The notes under the pieces were generated by a model. It worked only from the letters and a program-made list of their open reading frames with translations. It was not told the DNA's origin and made no database searches. This document shows positions 1-18,294 of a DNA stretch of 37,901 bases, in pieces. Position 1 is the stretch's first letter. Each line of letters begins with the position of its first letter. Source of the DNA: Gemmatimonadota bacterium (lineage in GTDB: Bacteria; Gemmatimonadota; Gemmatimonadetes; Gemmatimonadales; Gemmatimonadaceae); NCBI GenBank assembly GCA_031127085.1, contig JARIEY010000010.1, positions 1 through 37,901 of the forward strand, given 5' to 3'. Position numbers and translations under genes: made by a program.

Positions 1-1355
1 GGGATATCGTTCCGCTCAGGCGTCTCCACACGGCCACCGCCAGAGATCCTTTCTGGATCATAGCCGTCATTGCGCAGTGCGTAGAACCATACGGCTTCCA
101 CGCGCCTCGCGAACTCGGACGCGGGCTTTCGAAAGACGATCACGGCTGTCTTAACACCGGCGTACGGCTTGAACACTCCTGCAGGCAAGCTGACGACCGC
201 TAGGAGATCAAAATCCTCCACCAGCTTCTTTCGCAGCTCCACGTGCGCACCAGTCGAACCGAACAGCAGTCCTTCCGGCACGACGACCGCGCAACGCCCG
301 CCTGGGGCAAGATGCTGCATCACCAACGAAAGGAACAGCAGTTCGCTCTTCTTGCTGTTCGTCGGAAGATCGGAGCGAATGGACTCCTTGGGCAACTGGC
401 CCGCAAACGGCGGGTTCGCCAAGATGACGTTGTAGCGGCGGCGCAGATCGTCCTCAGTCAGTCCGCCCATGTCGGACAGAGAATTCGCACGCTTGAGTTT
501 TGCATGTCGAATGCCGTGCAGCACAAGGTTCATCATGCTGATGCGCACCATCTGGCGCGACACATCTGTTCCGTATACTGAGGCTTCGAGCAAACTCCAG
601 TCTGGGATCTTCTCACCTGCGCCCTTGCGATACGTTTGAAGGCGCGGGATCTCCAACTTGATGTCAGCTAGTGACTTCCCCTTCTTCTCGAGCCAGTCCT
701 CGCCGTAGATGGGGTACTCGCTGACGTGGTCGGAATACTTAGCCAACAGGTAATCTACAGCGTCGATCAGGAAGCCGGCCGTGCCCATAGCGGGATCGTA
801 CAGCGAGTCACCGATATCAGGGTCCACCATCTCAACCATAAACGCGCGGATTTGGCGCGGAGTGCGAAACTGCCCGTTGAGCGCGCTAGAGCCAAGATGC
901 ACAAGCAGGTACTCGAAGATGTCGCCCTTTACATCAGGCCCGAGCTTGCGAAACTCGAATCCATCTAGCTCGTCGATGACCTGCTTGAGCACGTTGGGAT
1001 CAACAATCTCGAGGACCGCGTCGCGGAAGTACTCGGCCACTTCGGGCTCATCTTTGGCGAGCGAGGCCATGTACGGAAAGACTTCATCACGAATGAAGTC
1101 GCGCAGTTCGTTACCGCTCTTGAAACGCCACTGGTTCCAGCGGTAGCGCTCCGATTGCGCAGGATACAACCGTGCGACATTGCCACCGGTGCCGCCAAGG
1201 CGAACCCGCAGTTCACGGTCAGACTCCTCTTCATCCAACAACTTCAGGAAGATGAGATAGGAAATCTGCTCGATGTAGGTAACCGGATTCGTCACACCGC
1301 CCGCCCAGAGAATGTCGGTGATGTGATCGAGCTTCCGTCGCAGCTGTTGGTTCAT
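1..1355 (-). CDS. hsdM: Type I restriction-modification DNA methylase subunit HsdM (3' end cut by window edge)
   Basis: Minus-strand frame with no stop from the ATG at 1355 to the left edge (about 451 residues), so the C-terminus is missing. The N-terminal helical HsdM domain (residues about 1-140) is followed by GQFRTPRQI (161-169), the SAM-binding motif I DPAMGTAGFL (187-196) and the adenine-methylase motif IV NPPF (314-317). In this family HsdM makes N6-methyladenine at the site chosen by HsdS, protecting host DNA from HsdR. It starts 26 nt after the hsdR stop codon, so the two are almost certainly one transcript in the order hsdR-hsdM. No hsdS is seen; it may lie beyond the left edge. All catalytic motifs visible here are intact, so nothing suggests decay. 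Confidence 0.93.
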   Translation of the reverse strand, partial: MNQQLRRKLDHITDILWAGGVTNPVTYIEQISYLIFLKLLDEEESDRELRVRLGGTGGNVARLYPAQSERYRWNQWRFKSGNELRDFIRDEVFPYMASLAKDEPEVAEYFRDAVLEIVDPNVLKQVIDELDGFEFRKLGPDVKGDIFEYLLVHLGSSALNGQFRTPRQIRAFMVEMVDPDIGDSLYDPAMGTAGFLIDAVDYLLAKYSDHVSEYPIYGEDWLEKKGKSLADIKLEIPRLQTYRKGAGEKIPDWSLLEASVYGTDVSRQMVRISMMNLVLHGIRHAKLKRANSLSDMGGLTEDDLRRRYNVILANPPFAGQLPKESIRSDLPTNSKKSELLFLSLVMQHLAPGGRCAVVVPEGLLFGSTGAHVELRKKLVEDFDLLAVVSLPAGVFKPYAGVKTAVIVFRKPASEFARRVEAVWFYALRNDGYDPERISGGGRVETPERNDI

Positions 1356-1381: not shown

Positions 1382-3640
1382 TCACGCAACCAAGACGGTT
1401 TGATTGATCTCTTCCATCACGGTGCGCAGCCCCTGCTCACCGAAGAGCTCGATGCCGATGTTCGCTGCGTTCAATATCGAGAGTGGCGGGGCAAACAGGT
1501 CGTCAAGCGAAACCCTCCCCTTCACCAGGCCGCGGTTCTTTAGCAAGGCGAGGTATTGCGCCTGATCAGGCGAGAGGTTCTTGGCGACAAGCCAAGCTCG
1601 GAAGTTCTCCTCCACCCTCTCCGGCCGGCTCTTGATCTTGAGCATGCCAAGCGCGGCACGGATGAAGTCCACGAGATTTCCACCCGGGTTCCGATAAGCT
1701 CGGCGCAGATTGTCTTCATTGAAGTAGCGCTGCGGCTGGTTCAAGCGCCGCGCAAGCTGCGTCTCCTCATCTTCCGTCAGCGCGTCGCCAGCCTTGACCT
1801 TGGCGATGATGGGATCGGCTTCCGCTCCCAGCTGGACGGTGGCTTCCCAATCGGTGACGTAGTCGCGCTTATCAATGCGCTCACCATCTGGACCAACTTC
1901 GATGTAGTGGACGGCATCGAGCCACTCATCTTCAAGGCCGAGCTCAATCAGCTCGCGCGGCGTCTTGGCGCCAGGCTGCTTGGGTCCGGGTGCGTAGCCG
2001 CCACCCCCACCCGAAAACACGTCGGCATCGGAGTCGTTGAAATGCTCGTGATTACGAAAGAAGTCATAAATGACGAACTTCTGTTTGCCAATGTGCGGGG
2101 CCGTTCGCGTGCCGCGTCCACGCATTTGTTGGTACAAAATCGGGCTGCGCACTCGGCGGCACATCACGAGGTGCAGCACTTCGCGGCAGTCAAACCCAGT
2201 GTCGAGCATTCCTACGCTAACCGCGACCATGGGCAAGTCTTCCTGCTTAAAGCGGCGGATCAGATCGTCCGCGTTTGCCACATCGGAGGTAATGACCTCG
2301 GCGTAGCGGCCCCTATGCTCTGGGTGAAGTTCGTTTAGGTACTGCGTCAGCCGCGCCGCGTGGTGCTTTGTGATAGCGAACACCACCGACTTACCTGGGC
2401 CGTTCTTCTGGCCAGGGGCGAGTTCACGGAAATTCTGCCAAGCTAGCCGGTCGAACTCTTCCACCATCAGACGGTTGCTGGCCTCGTTGGTCCAGTTTCG
2501 CTCGAACTCCGCAGGGTCGTAGTGCTTCTCCTCGTAATCGGCACCTTCAGACACAAGCGTGGTGATGCCCGTCGCGAACTTGTACGGCACCAAGAAGCCT
2601 TCCTTGAAAGCTTCTTGAATCGGATACGAGTAGTCCGGCGCGTCGTCCTTGCAGTGATAGAACTGAAAGGTGTTGCGTTCCACGTAGATGGCCGGCGTAG
2701 CAGTAAGGCCGATATGCAGAGCATCGAAGTGCGACAGCGCTGCTTGCCACGAGCCGTAGATCGACCGGTGGCATTCATCCATCACGACCACGTCGAAGTA
2801 GCCGCTAGTGAACTCGGGATAGCGACTAATCATGGTCTGCAGCAGGCAGACGGTGACCTGTTTCTCCTGTCGGATCATTCCCGGCTTCAGCCAGTAGCTG
2901 GAGTAGCCGGGCAACAGATCCTGAATGGCCTCGATAGCCTGCTTGGCAAGCTGCTCGCGGTCGACTAGGAACAACACACGCTCGGCTTGTCCGGCCTGCA
3001 CGAGGCGCTGGAGATAGAGCGCGATCATGTCTGTCTTGCCGCTGCCGGTGGGCAGTTCGATCAGAAAGCGACGCTTGCCGAGCTCTACTGCGCGGTCGAG
3101 CGCCTGCATAGCTTCTTTCTGATACGGCCGTAGCAAGCGCGTCTCGCCCTGGCGAGCGTACGTGCTTGGAATCGGCACGGTTGCCAGCGGCTTGCGCTCG
3201 GCACGCATGTGTACCAAGCGTTCCAGGTCACGGCGAGAGAAGAACGAGCTGACGATGCGCGCGTCGTCGTTCTGGTAGTCCCAGAAGTAGATCAGCTCGC
3301 CATTGGTAAGAAAGATGAACGGAGCGCCGATCATCTTGGCGTACGGCAGCGCCTGCTGTTTGGCGATGTACGGCTGAATCGCCTGCTTCTTCGCCTCGAT
3401 AATTGCCAGCGGACGACCACGCTGGTCCAGGAGTACGTAATCGGCACGACCGGTGGGAATACTGTCGCCATCGGAGGTGCGCACCGTGTTCGGCTGCGCG
3501 CCGGCTTCCGCCACGCGATAGCCACCGGAGACTTTCACCTCGGTGAGCACAGCTGACTTGTCGGCGGGATTCCAGCCGGCTGCTCGTAACTGATCGTCGA
3601 TCAGGATGCGTGCGTCAGTTTCGTTGTTCTGGGTGCTCAA
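1382..3640 (-). CDS. hsdR: Type I restriction endonuclease / translocase subunit HsdR
   Basis: Motor and nuclease subunit of a type I restriction system. Numbered from the chosen start, it has a PD-(D/E)XK nuclease domain (GRAD with Asp67, then EAK at 92-94) and a superfamily 2 helicase core: Walker A LPTGSGKT (about 197-204), DECH box (288-291), motif III LTATP (312-316) and a motif VI-like QMRGRGTR. All key residues are present. The frame is open up to a TTG at 3766 with no Shine-Dalgarno. I prefer the TTG at 3640 because GGAG (3651-3648) lies 7 nt upstream and the family usually begins shortly before the NETDARILID region. The longer form would add 42 residues. It lies downstream of, and in the same direction as, the CARF/sigma-54 regulator gene, and is followed by hsdM. 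Confidence 0.92.
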   Translation of the reverse strand: MSTQNNETDARILIDDQLRAAGWNPADKSAVLTEVKVSGGYRVAEAGAQPNTVRTSDGDSIPTGRADYVLLDQRGRPLAIIEAKKQAIQPYIAKQQALPYAKMIGAPFIFLTNGELIYFWDYQNDDARIVSSFFSRRDLERLVHMRAERKPLATVPIPSTYARQGETRLLRPYQKEAMQALDRAVELGKRRFLIELPTGSGKTDMIALYLQRLVQAGQAERVLFLVDREQLAKQAIEAIQDLLPGYSSYWLKPGMIRQEKQVTVCLLQTMISRYPEFTSGYFDVVVMDECHRSIYGSWQAALSHFDALHIGLTATPAIYVERNTFQFYHCKDDAPDYSYPIQEAFKEGFLVPYKFATGITTLVSEGADYEEKHYDPAEFERNWTNEASNRLMVEEFDRLAWQNFRELAPGQKNGPGKSVVFAITKHHAARLTQYLNELHPEHRGRYAEVITSDVANADDLIRRFKQEDLPMVAVSVGMLDTGFDCREVLHLVMCRRVRSPILYQQMRGRGTRTAPHIGKQKFVIYDFFRNHEHFNDSDADVFSGGGGGYAPGPKQPGAKTPRELIELGLEDEWLDAVHYIEVGPDGERIDKRDYVTDWEATVQLGAEADPIIAKVKAGDALTEDEETQLARRLNQPQRYFNEDNLRRAYRNPGGNLVDFIRAALGMLKIKSRPERVEENFRAWLVAKNLSPDQAQYLALLKNRGLVKGRVSLDDLFAPPLSILNAANIGIELFGEQGLRTVMEEINQTVLVA

Positions 3641-3804
3641 GTTCGGACTCCGTTGCAGTATCTCTGTCTGAAGAGAACCGACATAGTGCACAAGCTGTGC
3701 CAGCTGGTCACTTGATTCCCGCAGAAGCCAGTATGCGGCGAGACTGATGGGTACATGAGCACCCAAGCCGAGGAATCCGGCCCTCTTGCTGAATGACCTT
3801 GCCG

Positions 3805-5310
3805 CTAGAGATTGACCTCGTACTTGGCCAGCCAGTTGCTGAGCGTCTGATAGCTGGGCAGACCGACCAGCTCCGAGGCCTTCGTCTTGTTGCCGTGCGC
3901 TTCGTCCATCGCTCGCCCGAGGTAGTGCTGCGCCACCTCCTTCAAGAGGTCGGGCAGGCTGAGGCCGCCGCCCAGGGGGCGCCTAAGGACATCGTGCTTC
4001 GCCGACGGGATTGTAGGAAGAAGCGCCTCCCGAACGTCCTCGGATGATATTGCGGCGGAGTCGCTCCAAATGGCGGCGCGGCGAAGGGTGTTCAGGAGTT
4101 CGCGGACGTTGCCGGGCCAGGGATGCGATAGAAGAAGATTTCTTGCGCCAGAGGAAAGTTTCTTCTCTTTGAAACCCGGCTCAGCCTGTGCTTCCACATT
4201 TACCTGCCCGAGCAGGTAATCAATGAGGAGGCCTAGATCACCCGGGCGCTCACGGAGCGGGGGAAGCCTCAATACAGCGACGGCGAGCCTATAGAAAAGA
4301 TCCTCTCGGAAACGACCGGACGCGATCTCGTCAGTCAGCGTGCGATTGGTGGCCGCGACGATCCTCACATCAACAGCAGTGGGCTTGCTGGAGCCGAGGC
4401 GGACAACCTCGCCTTCCTGAACCGCGCGCAACAGCTTCACTTGTGCGGGACCCGGCAACTCGCCCAGCTCGTCTAGAAAGAGCGTGCCACCGTCTGCCAC
4501 CTCAAAATGTCCTTTGCGTTGCTGTGTAGCTCCCGTAAACGCCCCCTTTTCGTGGCCGAACAGCTCTGACTCCACGAGGTCTGCTGGGATTGCCCCGCAG
4601 TTTACTGCGACGAAGGGGCGTTCCCTACGCGGACTGGCGCGGTGGATGGCGCGCGCGAGCATCTCCTTTCCTGTGCCGGACTCGCCCTCGATTAGGACCG
4701 GAACTGATCGAATAGCAACGCGCCGGGCGCGCTGAATCAGCCGATCCATTACGCGGCTTTTGTGGATGATGTCGGCGAACTCTGGGGCTTCTGGAGGCTC
4801 GCCCCCGCTCGCCTCGCGCAGACGCTCGTCTGGTTCTCGCAGTAGGTCGGGCAGGAACTCGGCAGACAGATCGAAGGGCACTGAAGCAGTTCGCACGCCG
4901 TGATCGCGCGACGATTCGATCAACTCGGCGGGGAATCGTGTCTTCCCCAGGATGATCCACACCGCGGCCATCGCTGGCGTGCCTGGGCTCAGATGAAGCG
5001 CGAGCGACGTCGCGCGTCGCTGCTCGCCAAGGGCGCGCTCGATGCCGCGAACGGCCGCTTCGTAGATCTCGCCGAACTGTGTCGGCCCGGAGAGTTTCTC
5101 CGAGTGCACTTCAACTCGCGCTGAGGACCGCCCGCGCAGCCACTTCAGATATGGCTGCACGAGTTGGTCATCGTAGTTAGAGAGCAAGAAGACTTCGTCG
5201 AAGGGCCGCCCCTCGAGGGCCTGCGCGATCGGCCCCAGCCCCACAAGCTCACCCTCAGTGGGGGCCCGGAGGTCCGTCTTCCCGATCCATGCCACGAGAA
5301 CTTTGCGCAT
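3805..5310 (-). CDS. Sigma-54-dependent activator with N-terminal CARF/RtcR-like sensor domain
   Basis: About 501 residues in three parts. Residues 1-160 form a Rossmann-like domain with GKTDLRA near the N-terminus and LSPGTPAM at 107-114. This matches the CARF-type loop of the form TGGTK-x-M, found in CRISPR ring-nucleotide sensors and in RtcR. Residues about 180-415 are the AAA+ domain of bacterial enhancer-binding proteins: Walker A GESGTGKE (209-216), the sigma-54 contact loop GAFTGA (256-261) and Walker B TLFLDE (276-281). The C-terminus (about 450-500) is a Fis-type helix-turn-helix. It should remodel sigma-54 RNA polymerase when the sensor binds its ligand, which in this superfamily is a cyclic oligonucleotide or RNA end; the ligand here is unknown. 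ATG 5310 is preferred over a TTG five codons upstream. The next gene on the same strand is hsdR; a nuclease-like gene is divergent. Confidence 0.88.
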   Translation of the reverse strand: MRKVLVAWIGKTDLRAPTEGELVGLGPIAQALEGRPFDEVFLLSNYDDQLVQPYLKWLRGRSSARVEVHSEKLSGPTQFGEIYEAAVRGIERALGEQRRATSLALHLSPGTPAMAAVWIILGKTRFPAELIESSRDHGVRTASVPFDLSAEFLPDLLREPDERLREASGGEPPEAPEFADIIHKSRVMDRLIQRARRVAIRSVPVLIEGESGTGKEMLARAIHRASPRRERPFVAVNCGAIPADLVESELFGHEKGAFTGATQQRKGHFEVADGGTLFLDELGELPGPAQVKLLRAVQEGEVVRLGSSKPTAVDVRIVAATNRTLTDEIASGRFREDLFYRLAVAVLRLPPLRERPGDLGLLIDYLLGQVNVEAQAEPGFKEKKLSSGARNLLLSHPWPGNVRELLNTLRRAAIWSDSAAISSEDVREALLPTIPSAKHDVLRRPLGGGLSLPDLLKEVAQHYLGRAMDEAHGNKTKASELVGLPSYQTLSNWLAKYEVNL

Positions 5311-5315
5311 AGACG

Positions 5316-5333
5316 AAGAATGCAAGTTTTCTT
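5316..5333. promoter_or_regulatory. Imperfect inverted repeat next to the regulator start codon
   Basis: AAGAA and TTCTT flank an 8-nt spacer, 6 nt upstream of the regulator ATG at 5310. A similar arrangement, sharing the 10-mer AATGCAAGTT, overlaps the start codon of the integrase gene at 8554-8571. It could be an operator used at both places. The evidence is similarity alone. Confidence 0.25.
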
Positions 5334-5348
5334 ACCATCGCACAAGGA

Positions 5349-5364
5349 GCGTTGTATCCAACGC
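5349..5364. promoter_or_regulatory. Candidate enhancer (upstream activating sequence) for the sigma-54 activator
   Basis: Perfect 6-bp inverted repeat GCGTTG-TATC-CAACGC. It lies about 83-98 nt upstream of the start predicted from the -24/-12 promoter at 5421-5436, a typical distance for enhancer-binding protein sites. It is 39 nt upstream of the activator's own start codon, so it could also mediate autoregulation. Assignment is by position and symmetry only. Confidence 0.5.
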
Positions 5365-5420
5365 GACGTACTGGCATGTGAACCTGTCGCTTCACGGGGC
5401 TTTGGCGGCCGCAGCAGCGC

Positions 5421-5436
5421 TGGCACGATTGCTGCA
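5421..5436 (+). promoter_or_regulatory. Sigma-54 (-24/-12) promoter of the nuclease-like gene
   Basis: TGGCACGATTGCTGCA matches the sigma-54 consensus TGGCACG-N4-TTGCA at all but one position (CTGC for TTGC), with the exact GG-to-GC spacing. The predicted start is near 5447, immediately before the ATG codons at 5450 and 5459. The divergent neighbour encodes a GAFTGA-containing sigma-54 activator, which strongly supports the call. Confidence 0.8.
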
Positions 5437-5449
5437 AATGCAGGCCGGT

Positions 5450-7138
5450 ATGACGAACATGATTCACACGCAGCCCCTCGCGGTCTCCCTCCTGTTCTCC
5501 ACCGACGAAGTGGCTATCGATCTTCGAGACCGCCGCCCCGACAGCCTCGGGCTCTTCGGCGAACTCGACACGGACGCCCGGGAGCAGTTCGCGCACGACG
5601 CGTGGACGATTGGCCTGCGGGCACTCGCGAACGCTCACGCAGCGGCTCAAGAGTCCAAACTCAAGGACGTCGGTGCAGCACTCCTAGGCGACATTGACCG
5701 TCAACTCAACATTCATGTTGAAAAGCAACACAACACGATCAGTACGGTGCTTGGACGCTACTTCGACCCTGCTGATGGTCAGGTTACACAGCGGCTTTCG
5801 GCCTTCGTCGACGACGAGGGCGTGCTGGCGCGCCTCCTCGAGAGATTCCTCGGTCCGCAGAACAGCGTGCTCGCCGAAGCGCTGGCGAGACAGGTTGGCG
5901 AGACCAGCCCGCTCTTCAAGAAGCTGAGCCCCACCGACAGTACGGGACTGGTCAAGGTACTCGAGACTCAGCTTCGCGCGGTCATGGACGAAGGCCACAC
6001 TGAACTCGTGCGCGCACTCGACCCACTCGCTGAAGATGGAGCGGTCGCACGGTTCCTCAAGAGTCTGCGCGATGAACTAAGGGGCGCCGACGAGGATCGC
6101 CAAGAGCAGCTCTCAACAGCGCTCGCCGCGCTGGACGCGAACGACGAGAACTCACTCCTCAGCCGCCTCGTTCGCGAAACGCACCATGCACGCCAAGACG
6201 TGCTTGCAGCCGTGAACCCTGACGCGCCATCGTCTCCGATGGCGCTCCTGAAGGCGAGCCTGTCCAGGCTTCTCGAGGAGCAGTCGATGGCACACCTCGA
6301 CCTGGTCAGGCGACAGGAGGAGAGACAGGTACAGTTCGAAAAGGAAGTCCGCGAGGCACTCACCCGCATCGAAACGAAGCGTCTGCATGACCAGAAGACC
6401 ACCCGCGGCGGTCTCGATTTCGAGGACGCGGTCGTGGCATACGTACGCGCCGCAACGCAGGGTGCGCCGTGCGTCTTCGACGCCACGGGGGCGACGGCCG
6501 GCATCGGTCGAAGCAAGAAGGGCGATGCCATTGTGCGGTTCACCGACGAAAGTGCGTTCGCCGGCGCAGGAGTCGTGTTTGAGGCCAAGCGCGAGGAAGG
6601 TTATACGGTGCAGAAAGCCCTCGATGAACTCGACGCGGCCAGGAAGAACCGCAACGCATCGGCGGGCGTCTTCGTCATGGCGCGCTCACACGCCAGTGAC
6701 GTGTTCCCGCGGTTCGCGCGCTACGGCAACAATGTCTTCGTCGTATGGGACGATCAGGACGCGAACACCGACGCTTACCTCCACGCGGCGATTCTACTGG
6801 GAATCGGGCTCATTACCCGCACGAAGGCGGCGGGCGATGAGGGTGATATCACGGCGCTGCGGGACGTCGAGTCGCGCATCGAATCCGAACTGACGAGACT
6901 CGAGAAGATGGAGAAACACAGCGACTCGATCCGGAAGAACGTCGACGGAATCAGCGACGAAATCCGCAAGGCGCAGAAGGCGCTCGACTTGCTTCTGCGG
7001 AAGGCGCAGAGCACGCTTCTCGCGCTCAACGTCGAGCTCAAGGACGAGGCTGCGGAGGCTGCGAGTCCTCTCTGCCTACCGGCGGGATCGCTCGAGCGTG
7101 CCGTGGTGTCACTTTCAGGCGACGGCGAAGCGGCGTGA
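5450..7138 (+). CDS. Coiled-coil protein with C-terminal PD-(D/E)XK-type nuclease domain
   Basis: About 562 residues; no specific family name is known to me. The first 300 residues are helical and rich in Glu, Leu and Arg. A domain at about 315-470 has the PD-(D/E)XK pattern: GLDFED (near 322), GRSKKGD ending at Asp359, and FEAK with Glu378 and Lys380. This layout is seen in RmuC-like and other coiled-coil DNA nucleases. A predicted coiled coil follows (about 475-545). No signal peptide is seen, so it should be cytoplasmic. The frame is open upstream to 5258, but the sigma-54 promoter at 5421-5436 sets transcription near 5447, so ATG 5450 or 5459 must be used; neither has a clear Shine-Dalgarno, and the leader would be very short. 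It is divergent from the CARF-type activator and probably its target. The substrate is unknown. Confidence 0.8.
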   Translation: MTNMIHTQPLAVSLLFSTDEVAIDLRDRRPDSLGLFGELDTDAREQFAHDAWTIGLRALANAHAAAQESKLKDVGAALLGDIDRQLNIHVEKQHNTISTVLGRYFDPADGQVTQRLSAFVDDEGVLARLLERFLGPQNSVLAEALARQVGETSPLFKKLSPTDSTGLVKVLETQLRAVMDEGHTELVRALDPLAEDGAVARFLKSLRDELRGADEDRQEQLSTALAALDANDENSLLSRLVRETHHARQDVLAAVNPDAPSSPMALLKASLSRLLEEQSMAHLDLVRRQEERQVQFEKEVREALTRIETKRLHDQKTTRGGLDFEDAVVAYVRAATQGAPCVFDATGATAGIGRSKKGDAIVRFTDESAFAGAGVVFEAKREEGYTVQKALDELDAARKNRNASAGVFVMARSHASDVFPRFARYGNNVFVVWDDQDANTDAYLHAAILLGIGLITRTKAAGDEGDITALRDVESRIESELTRLEKMEKHSDSIRKNVDGISDEIRKAQKALDLLLRKAQSTLLALNVELKDEAAEAASPLCLPAGSLERAVVSLSGDGEAA

Positions 7139-7168
7139 GAACTATCCACTAAGAGGCGCGCCATCGTT

Positions 7169-7552
7169 CAAGACCTAGGACCTCTTTCCGGCAGTCCCCC
7201 GGATCGCCGCCGCCACTACCGCCAACGCGGAGTTCACAACCAGTTTCTCATTCCGAGTGTGCCACTCGGCCAGGATAGCATACTGCTCCGGCGTTGAGGG
7301 TACCCCTGCGGCTCCTGCCACACCGAGATGGATAATCGGCCCACTGAGATAGTACGCCTGGGCGTCACGCGGGGCTGTTCAGACAGAGTCCCGAAAGAGA
7401 ACTCGCCAAGCGGCAGCGGTGAGCTCCCCCCGATGAAGCAGGCAGCCGGGATGGTCCGAGGAGATAGCGGCCTCGGTGAGATTCGAACGTGCGGCTTCGG
7501 AGCATCTGCCGAGGAGGTCCTGCCGTACAGAAGGCGAGTAGGGCCTGCGCAT
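7169..7552 (-). pseudogene. Probable decayed small gene, interrupted by an in-frame TGA
   Basis: A minus-strand frame reads 57 residues from ATG 7552, meets TGA at 7381-7379, then continues in the same frame for 69 more residues to TGA at 7171-7169. Both halves have protein-like composition; the second contains SGPIIHLGVAGAAG and AILAEWHTRNEKL. I do not recognise the family. It lies downstream of, and in the same direction as, the XRE-like gene, and the frame is continuous with that gene's stop. It ends convergently 30 nt from the nuclease-like gene. An antisense plus-strand frame of 117 codons (7328-7681) also exists and cannot be fully excluded. The TGA could be a true stop of a 57-aa gene, a mutation or a sequencing error. 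Confidence 0.35.
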
Positions 7553-7603
7553 TCTGGCCGAACCCGTTCGCGACGTGATCGTGCCCAGTCCTTCTATATG
7601 TGG

Positions 7604-8404: not shown

Positions 8405-8565
8405 TGCATGTTGAAGGCCATTCAATAGAAGGAATGGCAATATTGCAATAGGCACACTTAGAGATCTTGCATTATGGCGACAACTGTTGCATTTTATGGG
8501 CAAGGGCATTGCATTTTCCACCAGACTATGCATTTCTTCATGGAGGCTGAACCAAGAAAATGCAA
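8405..8565. repeat. Iterated TGCAT motifs in the AT-rich leader of the integrase gene
   Basis: TGCA(T/A) occurs at 8405, 8444, 8468, 8488, 8510, 8529 and 8561. The four central copies extend to TTGCATTATGG, TTGCATTTTATGG, TTGCATTTTCC and ATGCATTTC, with spacings of 20, 22 and 19 nt, about two helical turns. Serial transposase-binding sites in Tn7/Tn5053-type ends look like this, and so do operator arrays. The segment is visibly richer in A+T than its flanks. No terminal inverted repeat or target duplication could be fixed, so an exact transposon end is not claimed. Confidence 0.5.
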
Positions 8566-10368
8566 GTTCTAGATCCGAAACCGACTAGGATGGCAGTCGA
8601 AGCGGCAAAGGCGACTTCCGCCCTGCTTCAGGGGGCAATGGCCAGTGCGCTTGGGGCGAAGCTCCGGTCACAGGACGAAATCTCTCGGCTGAAGCTGCTG
8701 AATAGGGCGCTCGGAAAGCCGCGCGACAGCGACTGCTTCGCGCGCCTCATTAGCGACGCCTCCAAGGCAGCCAGCGACCTGGACGCTCGTCTCCGCAGGT
8801 CAAAGGGGGCAGCGGGCGGCGCTGCCGTGTCCTTGGCACCGAAACCGCCGATTCCCCCTGCGCCTACCGTAGGCACTTCCGTCCCCGCCGCGACTGCCGA
8901 GAAACCCGCTCGCTGCCCTATCCTGCGCGCCGACACCACAACGACCCATGCGATGATCAGAGCGGCCGTGGTCATCGTCGTCTTGAACGGCTCAAGGTCA
9001 CGGCGCGAGGCCGCCGCTGAACTGCGGGCTTTGGCGTCCGGCAAATCGTCGGCCCTCACGATGGCGTTGCCGCAGGGATGTGTGCACGAGGTAGTTCGCA
9101 AGTACAGGAACATCACAGCCTCGACGGTCGGACGCTGGGTCGCGGGTACGAGCGAAGCGGAGACGCGTGCTGCCGCTAGCGGGACGGTCGCGGCACCGCT
9201 TAGCGATACGCTCAGGCACGGCAATGCCACTCGCGAGACTGCGCGCCCTCCGGTTGCTGACCACCTCTGGCAGTTGCACAGGCAGTTCCCGCAGCTCTCA
9301 ATCGCCAAGCTCGGCGAGATGCTGCGTGAGGATGGGAAATCCAAGCTGGGTTCGCGCCAACTGCAGAACATCGTTCGCGAACACTTCGGCGCGAAGTGGC
9401 TACTGCTCACATACGGTGGAGATGCTACCGAGAAGGAACTACTCTCGCTTCGGCTCGCTTGGGAGACGCCGCACTCTAACGACGTCTGGATCATGGACCA
9501 TTCATACCTGCGCGTGCAACCCGGCGAGGAGGCGCGCGAGAAGATCCCGTTTTGGTACCTGGACGACGATCGCCGTGTGAAGCAGGAAATACTGATGGCC
9601 ACCGTCATCATGGACGCGTGCTCACGGATGATCATCGGAAAGCGCATCTGGCCCTTCGCGCCGACGCACCGCGAGAACATGCTCGTGCTGTTCGAGGCCC
9701 TCCGACGCTTTGGCAAGCCTAGGATTCTCTATACGGATAACGGCGCCGACCTTATCTGCGAGGAGATGCGTGAGGTCCTGATCCTGCTCGGCATTGAGCT
9801 TCGCACAACGCTGCCGGGCGAACCGCAAGGACGTGGGAAGCTCGAGCGCTGGTTCCGCACCATGAAGGAAGAGCTGCTTCCGATGCTTCCGGGCTTCATA
9901 TCGCCGGTGAAGCCAAAGACGTGGCGACCCGAGGATCTGCTCACCCGGTCGGCGCTTGAGCAACGACTCGAGCAGTACTGCGACGATTACAACGCCCGAG
10001 TCCACTCCTCCACAAAGGAGGCGCCCGCAGCGCGGTACCAGACGCGGCAGTCGATTGCCGGTAGCGCCGCAGTCCCGCTTGAGCAGATGCTGACGCTCCT
10101 CCCGTACGCGGATGTCCAAAGATCCGTCGACGGGGTGAAACACGCAGGAGTGACATGGTCAGGAGAGGCGCTGCTGCAGGTTCTGCGCGATACGTCAGTT
10201 CGTCTGTATTTCGACCCATACGAGAAGTCGATCCGTCACCTCGTCGTGTTCTCGGGTGAAATGGCGCATTACCTCGGAGTGCTCACACCACACGATCCCG
10301 TGGCGCGCTTCATGAAGGCTGACGCGCGCATCACGGCGCGACGCAACCGCCCGCGGCTCGCTAGCTAG
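8560..10368 (+). CDS. TniA/TnsB-like DDE integrase (Mu-type transposase)
   Basis: 602 residues, close to the usual TniA length. The N-terminal half carries DNA-binding segments, including a helix-turn-helix-like stretch around TASTVGRWV. The RNase H-like catalytic core follows with an intact triad: Asp313 in IMDHSYL, Asp393 in YTDNGAD and Glu429 in GKLERW, giving exact D-35-E spacing. A Mu-type C-terminal domain completes it. Such proteins cut and join transposon ends. It starts at ATG 8560 after the repeated-motif leader and is followed 6 nt later by the TniB-like gene. No TniQ or resolvase gene follows, unlike Tn5053. All catalytic residues are kept although the partner ATPase is degenerate. 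Confidence 0.9.
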   Translation: MQVLDPKPTRMAVEAAKATSALLQGAMASALGAKLRSQDEISRLKLLNRALGKPRDSDCFARLISDASKAASDLDARLRRSKGAAGGAAVSLAPKPPIPPAPTVGTSVPAATAEKPARCPILRADTTTTHAMIRAAVVIVVLNGSRSRREAAAELRALASGKSSALTMALPQGCVHEVVRKYRNITASTVGRWVAGTSEAETRAAASGTVAAPLSDTLRHGNATRETARPPVADHLWQLHRQFPQLSIAKLGEMLREDGKSKLGSRQLQNIVREHFGAKWLLLTYGGDATEKELLSLRLAWETPHSNDVWIMDHSYLRVQPGEEAREKIPFWYLDDDRRVKQEILMATVIMDACSRMIIGKRIWPFAPTHRENMLVLFEALRRFGKPRILYTDNGADLICEEMREVLILLGIELRTTLPGEPQGRGKLERWFRTMKEELLPMLPGFISPVKPKTWRPEDLLTRSALEQRLEQYCDDYNARVHSSTKEAPAARYQTRQSIAGSAAVPLEQMLTLLPYADVQRSVDGVKHAGVTWSGEALLQVLRDTSVRLYFDPYEKSIRHLVVFSGEMAHYLGVLTPHDPVARFMKADARITARRNRPRLAS

Positions 10369-10374
10369 GTCATT

Positions 10375-11525
10375 ATGCCGACACCGCATCCTGTCCTGCT
10401 GCCGCCATCGACTTTGCCGCGACTGAGCCTGGCTCGGCCGAAGGCGTCGCTGGCCATCCGCCGCTCCATCGACTTCCAAGGTTTCGATACGGCCCTCGAC
10501 GTCCCCGGTACCACACAGCGGCCGATTCTTCCGGTTGAGCTACAGCCCGCTGGGGTCGCTGCGTGGCGTATTCCGTCGCAGACTACCGAGGTTGAGGCAG
10601 CGTTCTGTCGCGCCCTTGAAGTCGGAGCGCACGCGCTCTGCTATCAGACCGATCTCGGCGTCGGGCTGTCGACGCTTCTGCAGAGAATGACCGCAGTCTT
10701 CAACGCCATTCAAACGCGTCGCGCCGATGCGCCATGCGTGTGCAGTATCTCTCACTCCCAGCAGGGCAGACGGCGGCGAGCCGGCTTCTCGACGCCATAT
10801 CGGCCGCCGTTGGGTATCCGCTCTCCTTCAGCGACCTAAGGTATCGAAGCTCATATCGGATGCTCGCGGGACTGTGCGAACATCTCCGTCGTACCCGGGT
10901 GGTTGGCGTGATTGTGGATCACATCCATCGTGCGAACGGCGACTCTCTCGACAAGTTGGTGGAGTTCGCCGAGTTTCTCGATCAGGATCAACGAACATCT
11001 GACGGGGGAGTGCCGGAACGGGCAGAACCGCCCGTGACGCTGATCTTTGCAGGCAGCGCGGAGCCAGAGTTCCTTCAGACTCGATCACCATCGCTTGCGT
11101 CGCTGATAGGAGGGTGCTCTGCGATGATGGCTCCGTTGTCTTCGCCAGATGAGGTGAAACAGGCCATCGAGCAGGGCTTCTCGTTGCGCGATCCGCGCTG
11201 GAGCGACGCGGCGCCTAGCCTGTTCGGCACTATACACGAAGAGACTCGCGGCCTGAACACACACCTTCGAACGCTGATGCAGGACGCGGCGCGGCGAGCT
11301 TCGAAGCGGGACATCTCAAGCATCGAATCGGCGCTTGGAGACGCAATCAGGGCGCGCACGGCATTCCCGGATGCAACCGAGGAGGATGCCGGCACTGCGG
11401 ACCGGCGGCTGAGACCTGAAGCGAAACCGCTGCCCCCAAACCGTCGCGCCTCGAAAGGGCGCGAGAACGCCGCCAAGGCCAGTCAGGTTCTGAAGCAACG
11501 TGGCCTGACAAAACGCCCACGGTGA
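10375..11525 (+). pseudogene. TniB/TnsC-like AAA ATPase, split by a -1 frameshift and with degenerate ATP motifs
   Basis: Transposition partner ATPase by position and pattern. The first frame (10375-10839) encodes the N-terminus and a Walker A region reading TDLGVGLST, where the usual lysine is leucine. Homology-like sequence then moves to the -1 frame near 10725-10735 and resumes as RVQYLSLPAGQ, continuing to 11525. The Walker B-like VIVDHIHRA has His where Glu is usual, and the sensor-like IFAGS lacks the typical Asn. One missing base would explain the shift. No A-rich slippery site is seen, so programmed slippage is unlikely. Initiation at ATG 10734 is possible but has no visible Shine-Dalgarno. 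Its stop overlaps the start of the next gene (GTGA). It may be a real pseudogene, a sequencing error, or a non-hydrolysing adaptor. Confidence 0.65.
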
Positions 11526-13411
11526 AACGCTCCAAGCAAGGACATCACGAGGTCACGAGCGGGAAGGCGCATGCCGTTCACCCAGTATATCGAGTCGTCT
11601 TGCCGCAAATGGTAGCGAAAGCGACGAGAGAGCTCGGGCTCCCTGCGCTGCCGAGGCAGATCAGGGCGCTGAATGCCGCGGCGATTACTGGACTCCCAGC
11701 CACCTTCGACCGGCTCTTCAGTCACTACCTCCCGAAGTTTGCGGAAGCTGGACTGATCCGGCGGTGGAAACTCGAAGGAAGGCGGACGAGCTTCTACGCG
11801 CCGAAGAACTGGCATGGTGCGCTGCCTCCCAAACTTCCATACTCGATGGCCGCTCAGTTCCTCGAAGCAGCGCGGCAATTCCACCGTGACAATCCCGCCA
11901 CTCCCTTCACGTCTCGCGACATCACCGCGCGACTCGCATCGGACGTGCGAGGCGCAGGTTTTGTGGCCTCCGGGATCGGCGCGCTTGCGACCCAGGGAAG
12001 GCTGGTCCGCGTCGGCAAAACCGGATGCGACCGCCTCTACTTCGAACCCCGCGCGTACCGCGCGCTTTCAACGCGTGCGCGGAGCCGCGTTGTGCGGAAC
12101 TACGCGACCGCCCTCCTCGCCGGACACGTCACGACGACGCTTGCGGCCGCGGTCGCCTCGTTGGTGCGCGCGCTCGAGCAACAGCGTTTTGCCAGCGCTT
12201 TGCCATCGGACCTCGCGGCGCTACGGGGCCGCCCGTTTGAGAAAGCAGAGATCCTTGCTGCGGTCAACACGAGCATTTCTCCCAGTGCACTGAACGCAGG
12301 CAATCTGTCGGCCGCCATCGGCAGCGCGACATCGACGTTCCGGACTACATCGGACGTGTCGCTGCGCTGCGTTGGATCGATTGGTACGCGGCACTTCTAC
12401 GCATTTTCCAAGGCGTCACACTCGCCATACGTGGACCTTCGGATCGCAGAGTATCAGCTGTCGAGGCTTCTCGAGTCCGCAGAACTGCGGATCCTCCGTG
12501 GAATCGCCGGGACCGGGATCTCGGACTCAGGCGTCCGGGTTCCAGCTGTTGTCGCGGCCGCACGCTTCGCGGAGTTCGCGGCCCGCGTCCAATGGCGGAG
12601 AGAGGTTCTCGGTCAAATGGACGCTCGATCCCTTCTGACTTCAAACGAGGCCGAGCAACATCGGGCGTTGATCGCGAGTGCAGGCGACGTTGAGCATGAG
12701 CTCGCGGCAGCCGTGCGAGCCTCCGGCGGCGATGGCATTCAGCTCACGTGCGACGTTCCTGATATTCCTGACGACGGAGCAGTCGTGCCCACTCTGACCG
12801 TCGAGGCTGCAGCGGTGACCGCTGGCCTTCCGCGCGGAAAGTCCCAACGCGAGCTGAGTGGCCGGCTGGCGCGCCGGCTGGGGGCTGTTGAACGCACCGT
12901 TCCATCCCGCGTCGCCCTGGCACCCGAGACGCGCCGCAAGGGCGGACGGGCGCGAGTGTATCTTCGTCGCTCTCGCGTTCTTTGCTACCTTCTCCGAAAG
13001 GCAGGCGGGCCAAACTGGGTGGCCATCGGTGCCTATGCCGAGGAGGTCCTCGGCGACCTGAGTGAAGCCGACGTCTTCGCGTGGCTTCTGATGAACGGCA
13101 ATGAGCACGACGCGATGGTCGCCGCCGCCTGCCTGGCAATCCTCGACAGCATGGGTGCGCGCGAGGCCCTCGCGAGGTTCCTTGAAGCCGAGCGCCGTCA
13201 GACTCGGCGGGCGAGCGCGGCGATGGAGTTTGCCGTGATCGGCCTTGCCCGGAAGCCGCTGCTCCCGCGTGCGACAGGACTCGAACTGGTCCATCGGGAC
13301 CTCGTACGGGTCCTTAGTCGCGATTCCGACCGGCGGATTGCGCGACTGGCGTTATGGACGCTGCGATCGTGGGAGCAGGAGGTCGGTGAGCGCGAGCTGC
13401 TGACCCTATAG
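11522..13411 (+). CDS. Large protein of unknown family, third gene of the TniA/TniB-like module
   Basis: 629 residues from GTG 11522, which overlaps the previous stop (GTGA), so translation is probably coupled. I do not recognise the family. Residues about 30-100 resemble a winged-helix segment (PATFDRLFSHYLPKFAEAG, then GLIRRWKLEGRRTSFYAP). Residues 110-185 give a second one (FTSRDITARLAS, then LVRVGKTGCDRLYF). The remainder is helical; the last 180 residues have alternating helices suggestive of HEAT-like repeats. Cysteines are few and not paired, so it is not a zinc-finger TniQ. By position it occupies the place of the target-selection subunit. A DNA-binding role is inferred from the winged-helix look and high Arg content. 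A hairpin follows 54 nt downstream. Confidence 0.6.
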   Translation: MKRSKQGHHEVTSGKAHAVHPVYRVVLPQMVAKATRELGLPALPRQIRALNAAAITGLPATFDRLFSHYLPKFAEAGLIRRWKLEGRRTSFYAPKNWHGALPPKLPYSMAAQFLEAARQFHRDNPATPFTSRDITARLASDVRGAGFVASGIGALATQGRLVRVGKTGCDRLYFEPRAYRALSTRARSRVVRNYATALLAGHVTTTLAAAVASLVRALEQQRFASALPSDLAALRGRPFEKAEILAAVNTSISPSALNAGNLSAAIGSATSTFRTTSDVSLRCVGSIGTRHFYAFSKASHSPYVDLRIAEYQLSRLLESAELRILRGIAGTGISDSGVRVPAVVAAARFAEFAARVQWRREVLGQMDARSLLTSNEAEQHRALIASAGDVEHELAAAVRASGGDGIQLTCDVPDIPDDGAVVPTLTVEAAAVTAGLPRGKSQRELSGRLARRLGAVERTVPSRVALAPETRRKGGRARVYLRRSRVLCYLLRKAGGPNWVAIGAYAEEVLGDLSEADVFAWLLMNGNEHDAMVAAACLAILDSMGAREALARFLEAERRQTRRASAAMEFAVIGLARKPLLPRATGLELVHRDLVRVLSRDSDRRIARLALWTLRSWEQEVGERELLTL

Positions 13412-16360: not shown

Positions 16361-18190
16361 TCAGGCGCTGGTTTCGCGGAGCACTTGTTCGAGCGGCACG
16401 ACGCCCTTCAGGACCTTGAGCCAGCCGTCCATGCGGAGCGTCAGCATCCCGTCCTCGATGCCGCCTTCCCTGATTTCGGCCGCGCCGACGTTCTGCAGGA
16501 TGAGGCGGCGCAGGCGCGGGGTCATGAACATCACCTCGTACAGGCCCTGACGTCCCTTCATGCCGTTGCCGCCGCACGCGTCGCAGCCCTTGCCGCGCCA
16601 GCACGGCACCGACGCGATCTTCGTGTCGAGCGTCAAATCGGTGAGGAACGGCGCGGCGTCCTTGGAGGCATTCCGCACGGCGTCGCGCAGGGCCTCCGCG
16701 GTGAACCGCAGGTCGCGGTACGTGGTGTCGCGCGTGATCTTGGCGGTCTGCATCTCCTCGTCGCTCATGATGTAGTGCTCCTTGCAGCTGCCGCAGACGC
16801 GGCGCACGAGGCGCTGAGCGAGAATGAGGTTGAGCGCCGAGCTCACATTGAACGGTTCGAGCCCCATATCGAGCAGACGGGTGACCGTCTCGGGGGCCGA
16901 GTTGGTGTGCAGCGTAGAGAGCACCAAGTGGCCGGTGAGCGCCGCCTTGATGGCGATGCCGCCGGTCTCGAGATCGCGGATCTCGCCCACCATGATGATG
17001 TTGGGGTCCTGCCGCAGGAACGCCTTGAGCGCCGCGGCGAAGGTCATCCCGATTTCATTGCGCACAAGCACCTGATTGATGCCGAAGATGTTGTACTCCA
17101 CCGGATCTTCGGCCGTCATGATGTTCGTGTCGATGCTGTTCACCTTAGACAGCGCCGAGTAGAGCGTGGTCGTCTTGCCCGAGCCCGTGGGGCCGGTGAC
17201 GAGCACCATCCCGTACGGGTTGCTGACCGCTTCCATCAGCTCGCGCTCGGCGCGCGGTTCGATGCCGAACTTCTCGAGGTCGAGCGTCAGGTTGCCCTTG
17301 TCGAGAATACGGAGCACGACCTTTTCGCCGAAAATCGTGGGCAACGTCGACACGCGGTAGTCGATGACCTTCTTGCCCATCTTCAGCTTGATGCGCCCGT
17401 CCTGCGGGACGCGCCGTTCGGCGATATTGAGCGCCGACATGATCTTGAAGCGCGAAATCAGCGCCGCCTGCATCTTCTTGGGCGGCTTCATGATTTCCTG
17501 CAGCGCGCCGTCGATGCGGTAGCGCACGCGCAGTTCGTGCTCGAAGCACTCAAAGTGGATGTCGGAGGCGCCGCGCTTCACCGCGTCGGTGAGGATGGCA
17601 TTGAGCAGCTTCACCACCGGCGCGTCGTCGACCAACTGCGCCTGCCCGGCGGCGGCTTCCTCGTCCGACGAGTCCACCACCTCGACGTCGGCTTCGGCGT
17701 CCAGTCCCTCGATCTCCTCGAGGAGCGCACCCATCTGCACGTCGGTGGACTCGTAGTGCTTCTCGATGGCGTTCTTGAGCGTGAACTCGCCCGCGATGAC
17801 CGGGAAGATGTCGTAGCGCGTGATGAACTTGAGATCGTCCACCACCCCCATGTTCGTGGGGTCGGCCATCGCCACCGTCAGCGTGCGCCCGTCACGCTTG
17901 AGCGGGAGCACGAGGTGCTTCACCGCAAGGTCGGCCGGGACCAGCTTCACGATGCGCGGATCGACCTCGAACTTGGAGAGGTCCACCGCCGGCATCTTGT
18001 ACTGCCGAGCCAGCACCTTGGTCAGTTCGAGTTCAGGGACGAACCCCAGTTTGACGAGGTTGTAGCCGACGCGCGTCCCGCTCTGTTTCTGTTCGGCGAG
18101 CGCCTTCTCCAACTGCTCCTTGGTGATGATGCCCTCGCGCAGGAGGAGATCACCCAGACGTTCGGAACCGGTGGATGCAGGATTAGCCAT
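16361..18190 (-). CDS. pilB: Type IV pilus assembly ATPase PilB
   Basis: About 609 residues from ATG 18190. The frame extends to 18259, but the extra residues do not look like protein and the family starts near GSERLGDLLLREGIITKEQL. An N-terminal MshEN-type domain, a low-complexity acidic linker (SSDEEAAAG), then the T2SSE ATPase domain follow: Walker A GPTGSGKTTTLY, TAEDPVEY, Walker B IIMVGEIRD and the LVLSTLHTNSA His box. The GspE/PilB zinc site is present as CGSC and, further on, CDAC. It powers pilus extension. It is first in the pilB-pilT-pilC run and follows the comEA-like gene by about 100 nt. Confidence 0.94.
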   Translation of the reverse strand: MANPASTGSERLGDLLLREGIITKEQLEKALAEQKQSGTRVGYNLVKLGFVPELELTKVLARQYKMPAVDLSKFEVDPRIVKLVPADLAVKHLVLPLKRDGRTLTVAMADPTNMGVVDDLKFITRYDIFPVIAGEFTLKNAIEKHYESTDVQMGALLEEIEGLDAEADVEVVDSSDEEAAAGQAQLVDDAPVVKLLNAILTDAVKRGASDIHFECFEHELRVRYRIDGALQEIMKPPKKMQAALISRFKIMSALNIAERRVPQDGRIKLKMGKKVIDYRVSTLPTIFGEKVVLRILDKGNLTLDLEKFGIEPRAERELMEAVSNPYGMVLVTGPTGSGKTTTLYSALSKVNSIDTNIMTAEDPVEYNIFGINQVLVRNEIGMTFAAALKAFLRQDPNIIMVGEIRDLETGGIAIKAALTGHLVLSTLHTNSAPETVTRLLDMGLEPFNVSSALNLILAQRLVRRVCGSCKEHYIMSDEEMQTAKITRDTTYRDLRFTAEALRDAVRNASKDAAPFLTDLTLDTKIASVPCWRGKGCDACGGNGMKGRQGLYEVMFMTPRLRRLILQNVGAAEIREGGIEDGMLTLRMDGWLKVLKGVVPLEQVLRETSA

Positions 18191-18294
18191 TGCCGAAGAG
18201 CGGACGGGAGACGGAAGACGGCGGACGGCAGTTGAAAACCTGACGTCGCCGGTCGGCATCTAATGAGTGAAGGTCGTTCGCGGGCGGGGGGGTG

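Follow-up and report, generated by a model that had tools for sequence, protein, structure and literature searches.

Which gene does a CARF-type σ54 activator switch on when it stands between a type I restriction-modification (R-M) operon and a gene transcribed away from it? We address this question in a 37,901-nucleotide stretch of DNA from Gemmatimonadota bacterium (GenBank assembly GCA_031127085.1, contig JARIEY010000010.1, positions 1 to 37,901, forward strand; hereafter the window). On the minus strand it carries the activator, P0001 (ATG 5310 to 3805), followed by hsdR and hsdM, the last truncated by the contig end; on the plus strand a gene diverging from the activator encodes a PD-(D/E)XK nuclease-like protein of 562 aa, P0002. 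We consider it probable that the whole is a horizontally acquired defence locus, in which a standing R-M arm is joined to a nuclease arm that is inducible through the CARF activator and σ54. The features that bear on this reading are as follows.

3805-5310, minus strand: CARF-AAA+-helix-turn-helix (HTH) σ54 activator P0001 of the RtcR_PspF2 type (PDLC01995, 665 bits; Sigma54_activat, 236 bits)
5322-5335, no strand assigned: dyad 1, GCAAGTTTTCTTAC, proposed activator binding site, at the same position in related spacers
5342-5355, no strand assigned: dyad 2, ACAAGGAGCGTTGT, proposed activator binding site, 20 bp from dyad 1 and recurring in related spacers
5420-5436, plus strand: −24/−12 promoter of the nuclease gene, CTGGCACGATTGCTGCA, 12 of 13 scored consensus positions
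5447, plus strand: predicted transcript start, 12 nt past the C of the −12 element by the general rule
5450-7138, plus strand: PD-(D/E)XK nuclease-like P0002 with long helical, probably coiled-coil parts (DUF2130, Mrr_cat and invariant residues)

The −24/−12 site and the gene behind it

To score candidate promoters, 17-mers were compared with YTGGCACGNNNNTTGCW, a consensus taken from general knowledge, with GG and GC required and 13 positions scored. Twenty-seven activator loci were scanned (the window, L002-L006, L078-L093 and L096-L100), including L089, which fits the family poorly (230 bits, with a very long branch) but was retained in the counts; L094 and L095, which hold nuclease pieces without an activator, served as background only. 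It can be seen that sites scoring 11 or more number 25 in the 14,040 strand-bases flanking the 27 activators, where 0.26 would be expected; the remaining 927,258 strand-bases of the 29 scanned loci hold 17. At a score of 12 the corresponding counts are 15 and 1, and 23 of the 27 activators have at least one flanking site of score 11. Because the loci are related, these counts are not independent and no probability is claimed for them.

The side on which the site lies differs by lineage (13 divergent from the activator, 12 downstream of it). In the ten loci that form one group in the activator tree, the window among them (the clade), the core TGGC-N-CG-N5-TGC is invariant before the nuclease start, and the nuclease ATG lies 29-32 bases past the first base of the 17-base site. 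In the window the GG-GC spacing is 10, with a sequence of the TGGCAC-N5-TTGC type. Unlike this core, the spacer upstream of it aligns poorly. A −24/−12 promoter at 5421-5436 had been proposed from the letters of the window, and its presence in related genomes now supports that proposal. Outside the clade a downstream site was found in 11 of 17 loci and a divergent one in three (L087, L088 and L093), while the window and L087 carry sites on both sides. Because the downstream position prevails there, the promoter looks, on sequence, to have been rewired here to the divergent nuclease gene. Two further sites were seen. At hsdR of L004 a site scoring 10 is taken as chance. In L093 (G102, of the window's own family) the CARF activator stands beside a strong divergent site, CTGGCACGCCGTCTGCT; the profiles used recognised no nuclease or R-M gene nearby, and the adjacent 159-aa open reading frame (ORF; 7117-7596) had no Pfam match.

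The usual distance from the C of the −12 element to +1 is 12 nt. By this rule the leader of the nuclease mRNA is 2-5 nt in all ten clade loci, each of which starts with ATG; in the window ATG 5450 lies 3 nt past the predicted start at 5447. The nuclease mRNA is predicted to be nearly leaderless, and transcription may also begin at another promoter farther upstream, or translation at a start codon beyond this ATG.

The stretch from the activator start to the promoter holds two dyads, imperfect and of the form ACAAG-N4-CTTRY, which lie roughly 98 and 118 bp ahead of the predicted transcript start. The 20 bp between them is about two DNA turns, the spacing expected for tandem activator sites, and a strict dyad pattern finds both in 6 of the 10 clade spacers. 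Autoregulation of the activator is possible, because the dyads lie close to its own start. The initial annotation had pointed instead to a perfect inverted repeat, GCGTTG-TATC-CAACGC, at enhancer distance. This repeat is present exactly (5349-5364, no strand assigned, overlapping dyad 2), but as an enhancer it was rejected because it is private to the window and absent from nine related spacers, whereas the two dyads above recur in relatives.

The activator and its divergent partner

The PADLOC profile RtcR_PspF2--CARF_AAA_HTH (PDLC01995) aligns with residues 3-499 of the 501 residues of P0001 over profile positions 2-480 of 481. The ORF spans 3805-5325 on the minus strand, with the start best placed at ATG 5310; by reading of the spacers, the start codon is GTG in 7 of the 10 clade loci. 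RtcR proper scores lower (PADLOC, 210 bits; NCBIfam NF038308, 347 bits against a cut-off of 650). The RtcR equivalog combines score with rtcBA linkage, and the neighbours found here are hsdR/hsdM and the nuclease gene. Judged by these profiles the activator is not RtcR, because its score on the NCBI model is far below the cut-off. Its domains are the following.

4861-5310, minus strand: CARF sensor domain, about residues 1-150 (AlphaFold2 predicted template modelling score (pTM) 0.69; best Foldseek match 6tug, Csm6, E 1.8e-4)
4273-4770, minus strand: AAA+ σ54 interaction domain with the GAFTGA loop (Pfam, residues 181-346)
3820-3942, minus strand: Fis-type HTH (HTH_8, 18.9 bits, below the cut-off of 22)

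The CARF model covers the first 172 residues and was built from six relatives; its mean predicted local distance difference test score (pLDDT) is 67.6, the best blocks reach 70-87 and residues 143-172 fall below 50. It has the Rossmann order and a hairpin of strands 5-6, which correspond to the description of CARF domains by Makarova et al. 2014 (PMC4012209). Foldseek ranks 1-12 are all CARF proteins (Csm6, Can2, Cdn1, a ring nuclease and Cad1), and unrelated Rossmann proteins begin at rank 13; a PDB sequence search with the CARF profile gave no match. The CARF/RtcR-type N-terminus and the σ54 activator identity, both first read from motifs, are thus upheld by the profile matches and the structural ranking. 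Of those motifs, LSPGTPAM, GAFTGA and Walker A/B are present (the ATPase and loop motifs of the window activator read GAFTGA, GESGTGK and LFLDE), while the Fis-type HTH does not reach its cut-off. As a separate observation, GAFTDA or GSFTGA occurs in 8 of the 10 clade members, and GAFTDA replaces GAFTGA in five activators of the clade (L004, L005, L006, L080 and L082); a GAFTDA loop is unusual among σ54 activators.

The ORF of P0002 opens at 5258, and conservation begins at ATG 5450. Pfam gave DUF2130 at 27.4 bits (cut-off 26.7) and Mrr_cat at 14.5 bits (below the cut-off of 21). The catalytic set was located in an eight-row alignment, which includes two archaeal proteins (24 and 27% identity) and a relative from L087 (30%).

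6410-6748, plus strand: nuclease core of P0002, residues 321-433, with D359/E378/K380, invariant in 8 aligned proteins

G358-D359, E378 and K380, together with the neighbours E325, N400 and R401, are invariant in 8/8 rows, and for that reason the predicted active site looks intact. We infer the PD-(D/E)XK fold from motif and profile alone; in a low-confidence model, long helical parts flank the core and are probably coiled coil. An archaeal relative reaches 27.6 bits with Mrr_cat, above the cut-off. The relative from Methanomethylovorans is annotated as a restriction endonuclease and lies behind methyltransferase and helicase genes; in the examined stretches around the two archaeal relatives no σ54 activator is annotated.

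Recurrence of the pair and the restriction operon

When 84,980 species genomes were scanned with P0002, 89 pattern matches arose and five loci were confirmed, all in myxobacterial records, full length and with best segments of 75-78% identity. A P0002 profile search of 195 genomes of the Corallococcus phylum found matches in nine: five full-length (two of them L005, a Corallococcus record, and L006), a more distant copy scoring 217 bits and three fragments. The three further full-length copies are 71-78% identical. Among 298 genomes sampled from the window's own phylum, P0002 was found in the window alone. The full activator-nuclease pair therefore stands at nine loci, the window and 8 further genomes with 71-78% identity, and hsdR lies directly behind the activator in all nine (hsdM was unrecognised in L002); the divergent pair and its promoter do recur in other genomes. 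L079 keeps the activator and the promoter, but its nuclease gene is a piece with an inner stop. Beyond the clade, L087 (G445) has a diverged activator (457 bits) flanked by type I R-M genes and, on the opposite side, by a 577-aa relative of P0002 (30% identity), and by its sequence is a separate pairing of activator and nuclease relative. No viral contig was confirmed among 205 pattern stretches, phage records gave no match, and a plasmid search with the nuclease gave two distant archaeal matches.

The activator family was searched at E 1e-100, at which 188/195 and 380/395 genomes matched because the AAA+ part matches any σ54 activator. Only matches covering the CARF part were retained, at least 15 places in the 195-genome set and at least 4 in the 395-genome set, with at most 7 and at most 3 candidates scored per genome respectively. 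Seven plasmid records held a CARF relative; five were taken on and two from Vibrio (26-28% identity) were dropped. Among the five, type I R-M lies behind the activator in three, and a VWA/phosphatase/kinase/AAA operon belongs to the other two. In the tree of the 27 activators the ten loci with the divergent site group together (support 92/96, 90% of bootstrap trees), beside L081 and other activators with an operon-side site; the window falls in a four-member group with L002, L003 and L078 (99/97).

Composition also sets the locus apart. GC content at third codon positions (GC3) is 0.71-0.75 for hsdM, hsdR, the activator and the nuclease gene, whereas four long ORFs elsewhere on the contig reach 0.88-0.91; one of these four, at 16361-18259 (by eye a PilB-type ATPase), is 88-96% identical within the same genus. 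Since GC3 differs while this ORF is native to the genus, the locus looks like a transfer into a native contig and not like contamination; it was apparently acquired from another phylum.

The restriction side of the locus comprises the following features.

3-1355, minus strand: hsdM, type I R-M modification subunit (Pfam HsdM_N 71 bits, N6_Mtase 158 bits; PADLOC MTase_I 412 bits)
1382-3640, minus strand: hsdR, type I R-M restriction subunit (Pfam ResIII, EcoEI_R_C and HSDR_N)
3687-3703, minus strand: candidate −24/−12 site of the hsd operon, CTGGCACAGCTTGTGCA, 11 of 13 scored positions

Side by side, hsdR and hsdM identify a type I R-M system by Pfam and PADLOC; no hsdS is visible in the window, where the contig ends inside hsdM. 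The listed hsdR ORF opens at 3766, and its start is more plausibly placed at TTG 3640, which has a ribosome-binding-site-like AACGGAG and aligns with the start of the HsdR of L081; the gap to the activator, on the same strand, is 38 bp with the listed ORF or 164 bp with the preferred start. Among the ten clade loci the window alone has an hsd-side site of score 11, and 0.0024 such sites are expected in 130 bp of one strand. This second −24/−12 site before hsdR suggests that the hsd operon is boosted by the same activator. The window HsdR is 30 and 33% identical to the two compared, from L081 and L078 respectively. From these identities it looks as if the activator and the nuclease gene were kept together through a change of restriction operon; this speaks for the activator-nuclease pair as the unit.

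Several relatives show variations on the restriction side. In L002, hsdR (1495-4359) encodes 954 aa, shorter than in other myxobacterial loci, and a YhcG/DUF1016 PD-(D/E)XK gene (335-1498) stands behind it in place of a recognised hsdM. An AAA_15/AAA_21 ATPase gene follows the hsd genes in two distant hosts (L082:15412-17001, in a genome of the Corallococcus phylum, and L096:19783-21492, on an Azotobacter plasmid) and is perhaps a recurrent third part of CARF-activator loci. In L092 a 1369-aa ORF (3202-7311, minus strand) with N6-methylase, type I specificity and AAA_16 matches lies directly behind the CARF activator, with a −24/−12 site at the activator's stop.

Proposed function and its alternatives

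The arrangement above would fit the following sequence of events. The activator would be made with, or just ahead of, the type I R-M operon. Its CARF domain would sense an infection-linked nucleotide ligand, most likely RNA ends with a 2',3'-cyclic phosphate as in RtcR, and ligand binding would free the AAA+ ring. The activator would then bind the two dyads 20 bp apart and open σ54 RNA polymerase at the conserved −24/−12 site; a nearly leaderless mRNA would yield the PD-(D/E)XK nuclease with its long helical parts, which may act as a second, emergency effector attacking DNA once first-line restriction fails. In the window the hsd operon might be boosted as well, through its own site. Dyad binding and σ54 opening we infer because the anatomy is conserved; ligand gating by the CARF domain and the role of the nuclease as a defence effector are proposed likewise. 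The initial annotation had left the choice between a defence and a repair circuit open. The CARF activator, the conserved promoter and the nuclease residues of that proposal hold, and the type I R-M operon within the locus, which that annotation had not mentioned, favours defence over RNA repair.

The ligand was considered from two sides. RtcR senses broken tRNAs (PMC7790460), and its signal is reported to be something other than oligoadenylates (Kotta-Loizou et al. 2022). A Cas10 palm-domain profile, which also matches an E. coli control and so is not fully specific, was over its cut-off in 2 of 9 pair genomes and below it in one more, with no match in the window's own genome; with Cas10 over the cut-off in two genomes, type III CRISPR is, by this profile, not a general partner of the locus. 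By analogy with RtcR, and because Cas10 is found in few pair genomes, RNA ends are tentatively favoured over cyclic oligoadenylate as the ligand. Against them stands the best structural match, Csm6, which is an oligoadenylate sensor.

Several results weigh against the defence reading. The strict dyad pattern finds one dyad in two clade spacers (L078 and L079) and none in two (L080 and L082), where degraded forms can be seen by eye. Four of the 27 activators (L085, L086, L089 and L099) have no score-11 site on either side, and L088 and L093 carry the divergent site without a recognised nuclease. The 92/96 support of the clade is just below the tree tool's mark for a firm branch. For P0002 the Pfam scores are marginal and no PADLOC profile matched; a PDB sequence search gave no match, hence no solved relative, and the structure model, built from six relatives, has low confidence (pLDDT 40.9) and is unfit for fold searches. 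The early statement that a nuclease-like gene starts at the predicted transcript start is supported as to the catalytic residues and the predicted start. The R-M part may be a neighbour rather than a partner, since HsdR identities of just 30 and 33% mark it as exchangeable. Finally, two RpoN profiles found no RpoN in the window's own genome. A locus silent in this genome for want of σ54 is nevertheless very improbable: the assembly is 81.67% complete, 94 of the 99 family genomes and all 72 of the good ones among them contain RpoN, the coding frames read here are open and the promoter is intact. RpoN is also present in 5/5 genomes of L002-L006, which counts for the defence reading.

An activator that mainly serves the restriction operon and itself, beside a captured nuclease gene with an incidental −24/−12 site, would explain the downstream score-11 sites of 11 of the 17 loci outside the clade, the site before hsdR in the window and the published association with R-M systems. 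It is unlikely, however, as the site precedes the nuclease ATG at the same short distance in 10/10 clade loci, the hsd-side site is confined to the window among them, and L087 pairs an activator with a nuclease relative separately. Coiled-coil PD-(D/E)XK proteins include RmuC, which counts for another possibility, namely a circuit for RNA or DNA damage like RtcR-RtcBA, in which the nuclease-like protein repairs host nucleic acid; RtcR, the closest studied activator, with its response to broken tRNAs (PMC7790460), points the same way. We regard such a circuit as distinctly unlikely, because hsdR is adjacent in 9/9 loci, the locus has spread horizontally and has an island composition, and one archaeal relative of P0002 adjoins methyltransferase and helicase genes, although no search by family was aimed at RtcA/RtcB. 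More serious, though still doubtful, is an abortive-infection toxin that cuts host DNA or RNA once induced. Control by σ54 gives a very low basal level, which suits a toxic product; against this, Mrr-type PD-(D/E)XK restriction enzymes act on modified or foreign DNA. Suicide after failed restriction is proposed for RtcR-linked CoCoNuTs by Bell et al. (PMC11090510), and ShdA, an RmuC-domain protein, is described as altering host chromosomal DNA organisation (PMC10270631). As a speculative and rather improbable extension of the defence reading, P0002 may be a last-resort effector, a second nuclease made only after RNA breakage is sensed: a near-leaderless, ATG-starting mRNA would still be translatable in a failing cell, when ribosomes, tRNAs or normal initiation are damaged.

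Parts of this scheme have precedents. RtcR of E. coli and Salmonella is likewise a CARF-AAA+-HTH activator acting through σ54 and gated by its N-terminal domain, but its targets are an RNA ligase and a cyclase (rtcBA), whereas the partner in the window is a predicted nuclease. In the accessible text of Makarova et al. 2014 (PMC4012209), R-M systems often accompany RtcR-like CARF-NtrC proteins unlinked to Rtc, which are regarded as likely σ54 activators of downstream genes, their ligands and target promoters being predicted and not measured. The PDLC01995 family presumably corresponds to these relatives; in the window, however, the conserved promoter faces the divergent nuclease gene. In Bell et al. 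2024 (PMC11090510), type I R-M genes and CoCoNuTs stand behind RtcR homologues, and a staged defence is suggested. Their type II CoCoNuT superoperons share with the window an RtcR homologue, type I R-M directly behind it and the theme of a coiled-coil nuclease, but nearly all their genes, including the McrBC-type ones, are co-directional with the activator, whereas the window nuclease is divergent with its own promoter. No McrB-type GTPase or McrC-type nuclease was found in the window proteins searched (8 with Pfam, 7 with PADLOC), and the contig ends inside hsdM, behind which such genes would follow. The Shield protein ShdA (PMC10270631) also combines a coiled coil with a nuclease-type domain in type I R-M operons of Pseudomonas; it has a membrane anchor and an RmuC domain, whereas P0002 matched no RmuC profile of Pfam at E 0.1 and none of PADLOC. 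P0002 shares the nuclease core motif and weak profile matches with the Mrr/DUF2130 PD-(D/E)XK family and differs from it in its long N- and C-terminal helical parts.

CARF σ54 activators beside R-M systems are thus already published (PMC4012209, PMC11090510). In our literature search, with most subscription papers outside its reach, a CARF activator paired with a divergent coiled-coil nuclease is nowhere described. The initial claim that the exact pair is undescribed holds to that extent, but the general idea, a CARF-NtrC protein activating R-M genes through σ54, was printed in 2014 and extended in 2024. For that reason only the exact partner and wiring appear undescribed: the divergent PD-(D/E)XK partner with its own −24/−12 site, the rewiring and the near-leaderless start. 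With its single activator, a conserved promoter that has two candidate enhancer dyads, and a single effector gene, the clade is a compact test case, in which it could be seen whether the sensing of broken RNA makes bacteria turn on a second nuclease. Across the 27 loci the promoter appears to move between restriction operon and divergent nuclease, which would represent rewiring within a family of defence regulators.

A transposition-type module adjoins the defence genes on the plus strand (8560-13411). It consists of a 602-aa DDE transposase (rve, with a weak TnsB_V-K match of 36 bits), an AAA-type ORF that by eye is apparently split across two frames (10375-10839 and 10734-11525), and a protein of 629 aa that matches no family.

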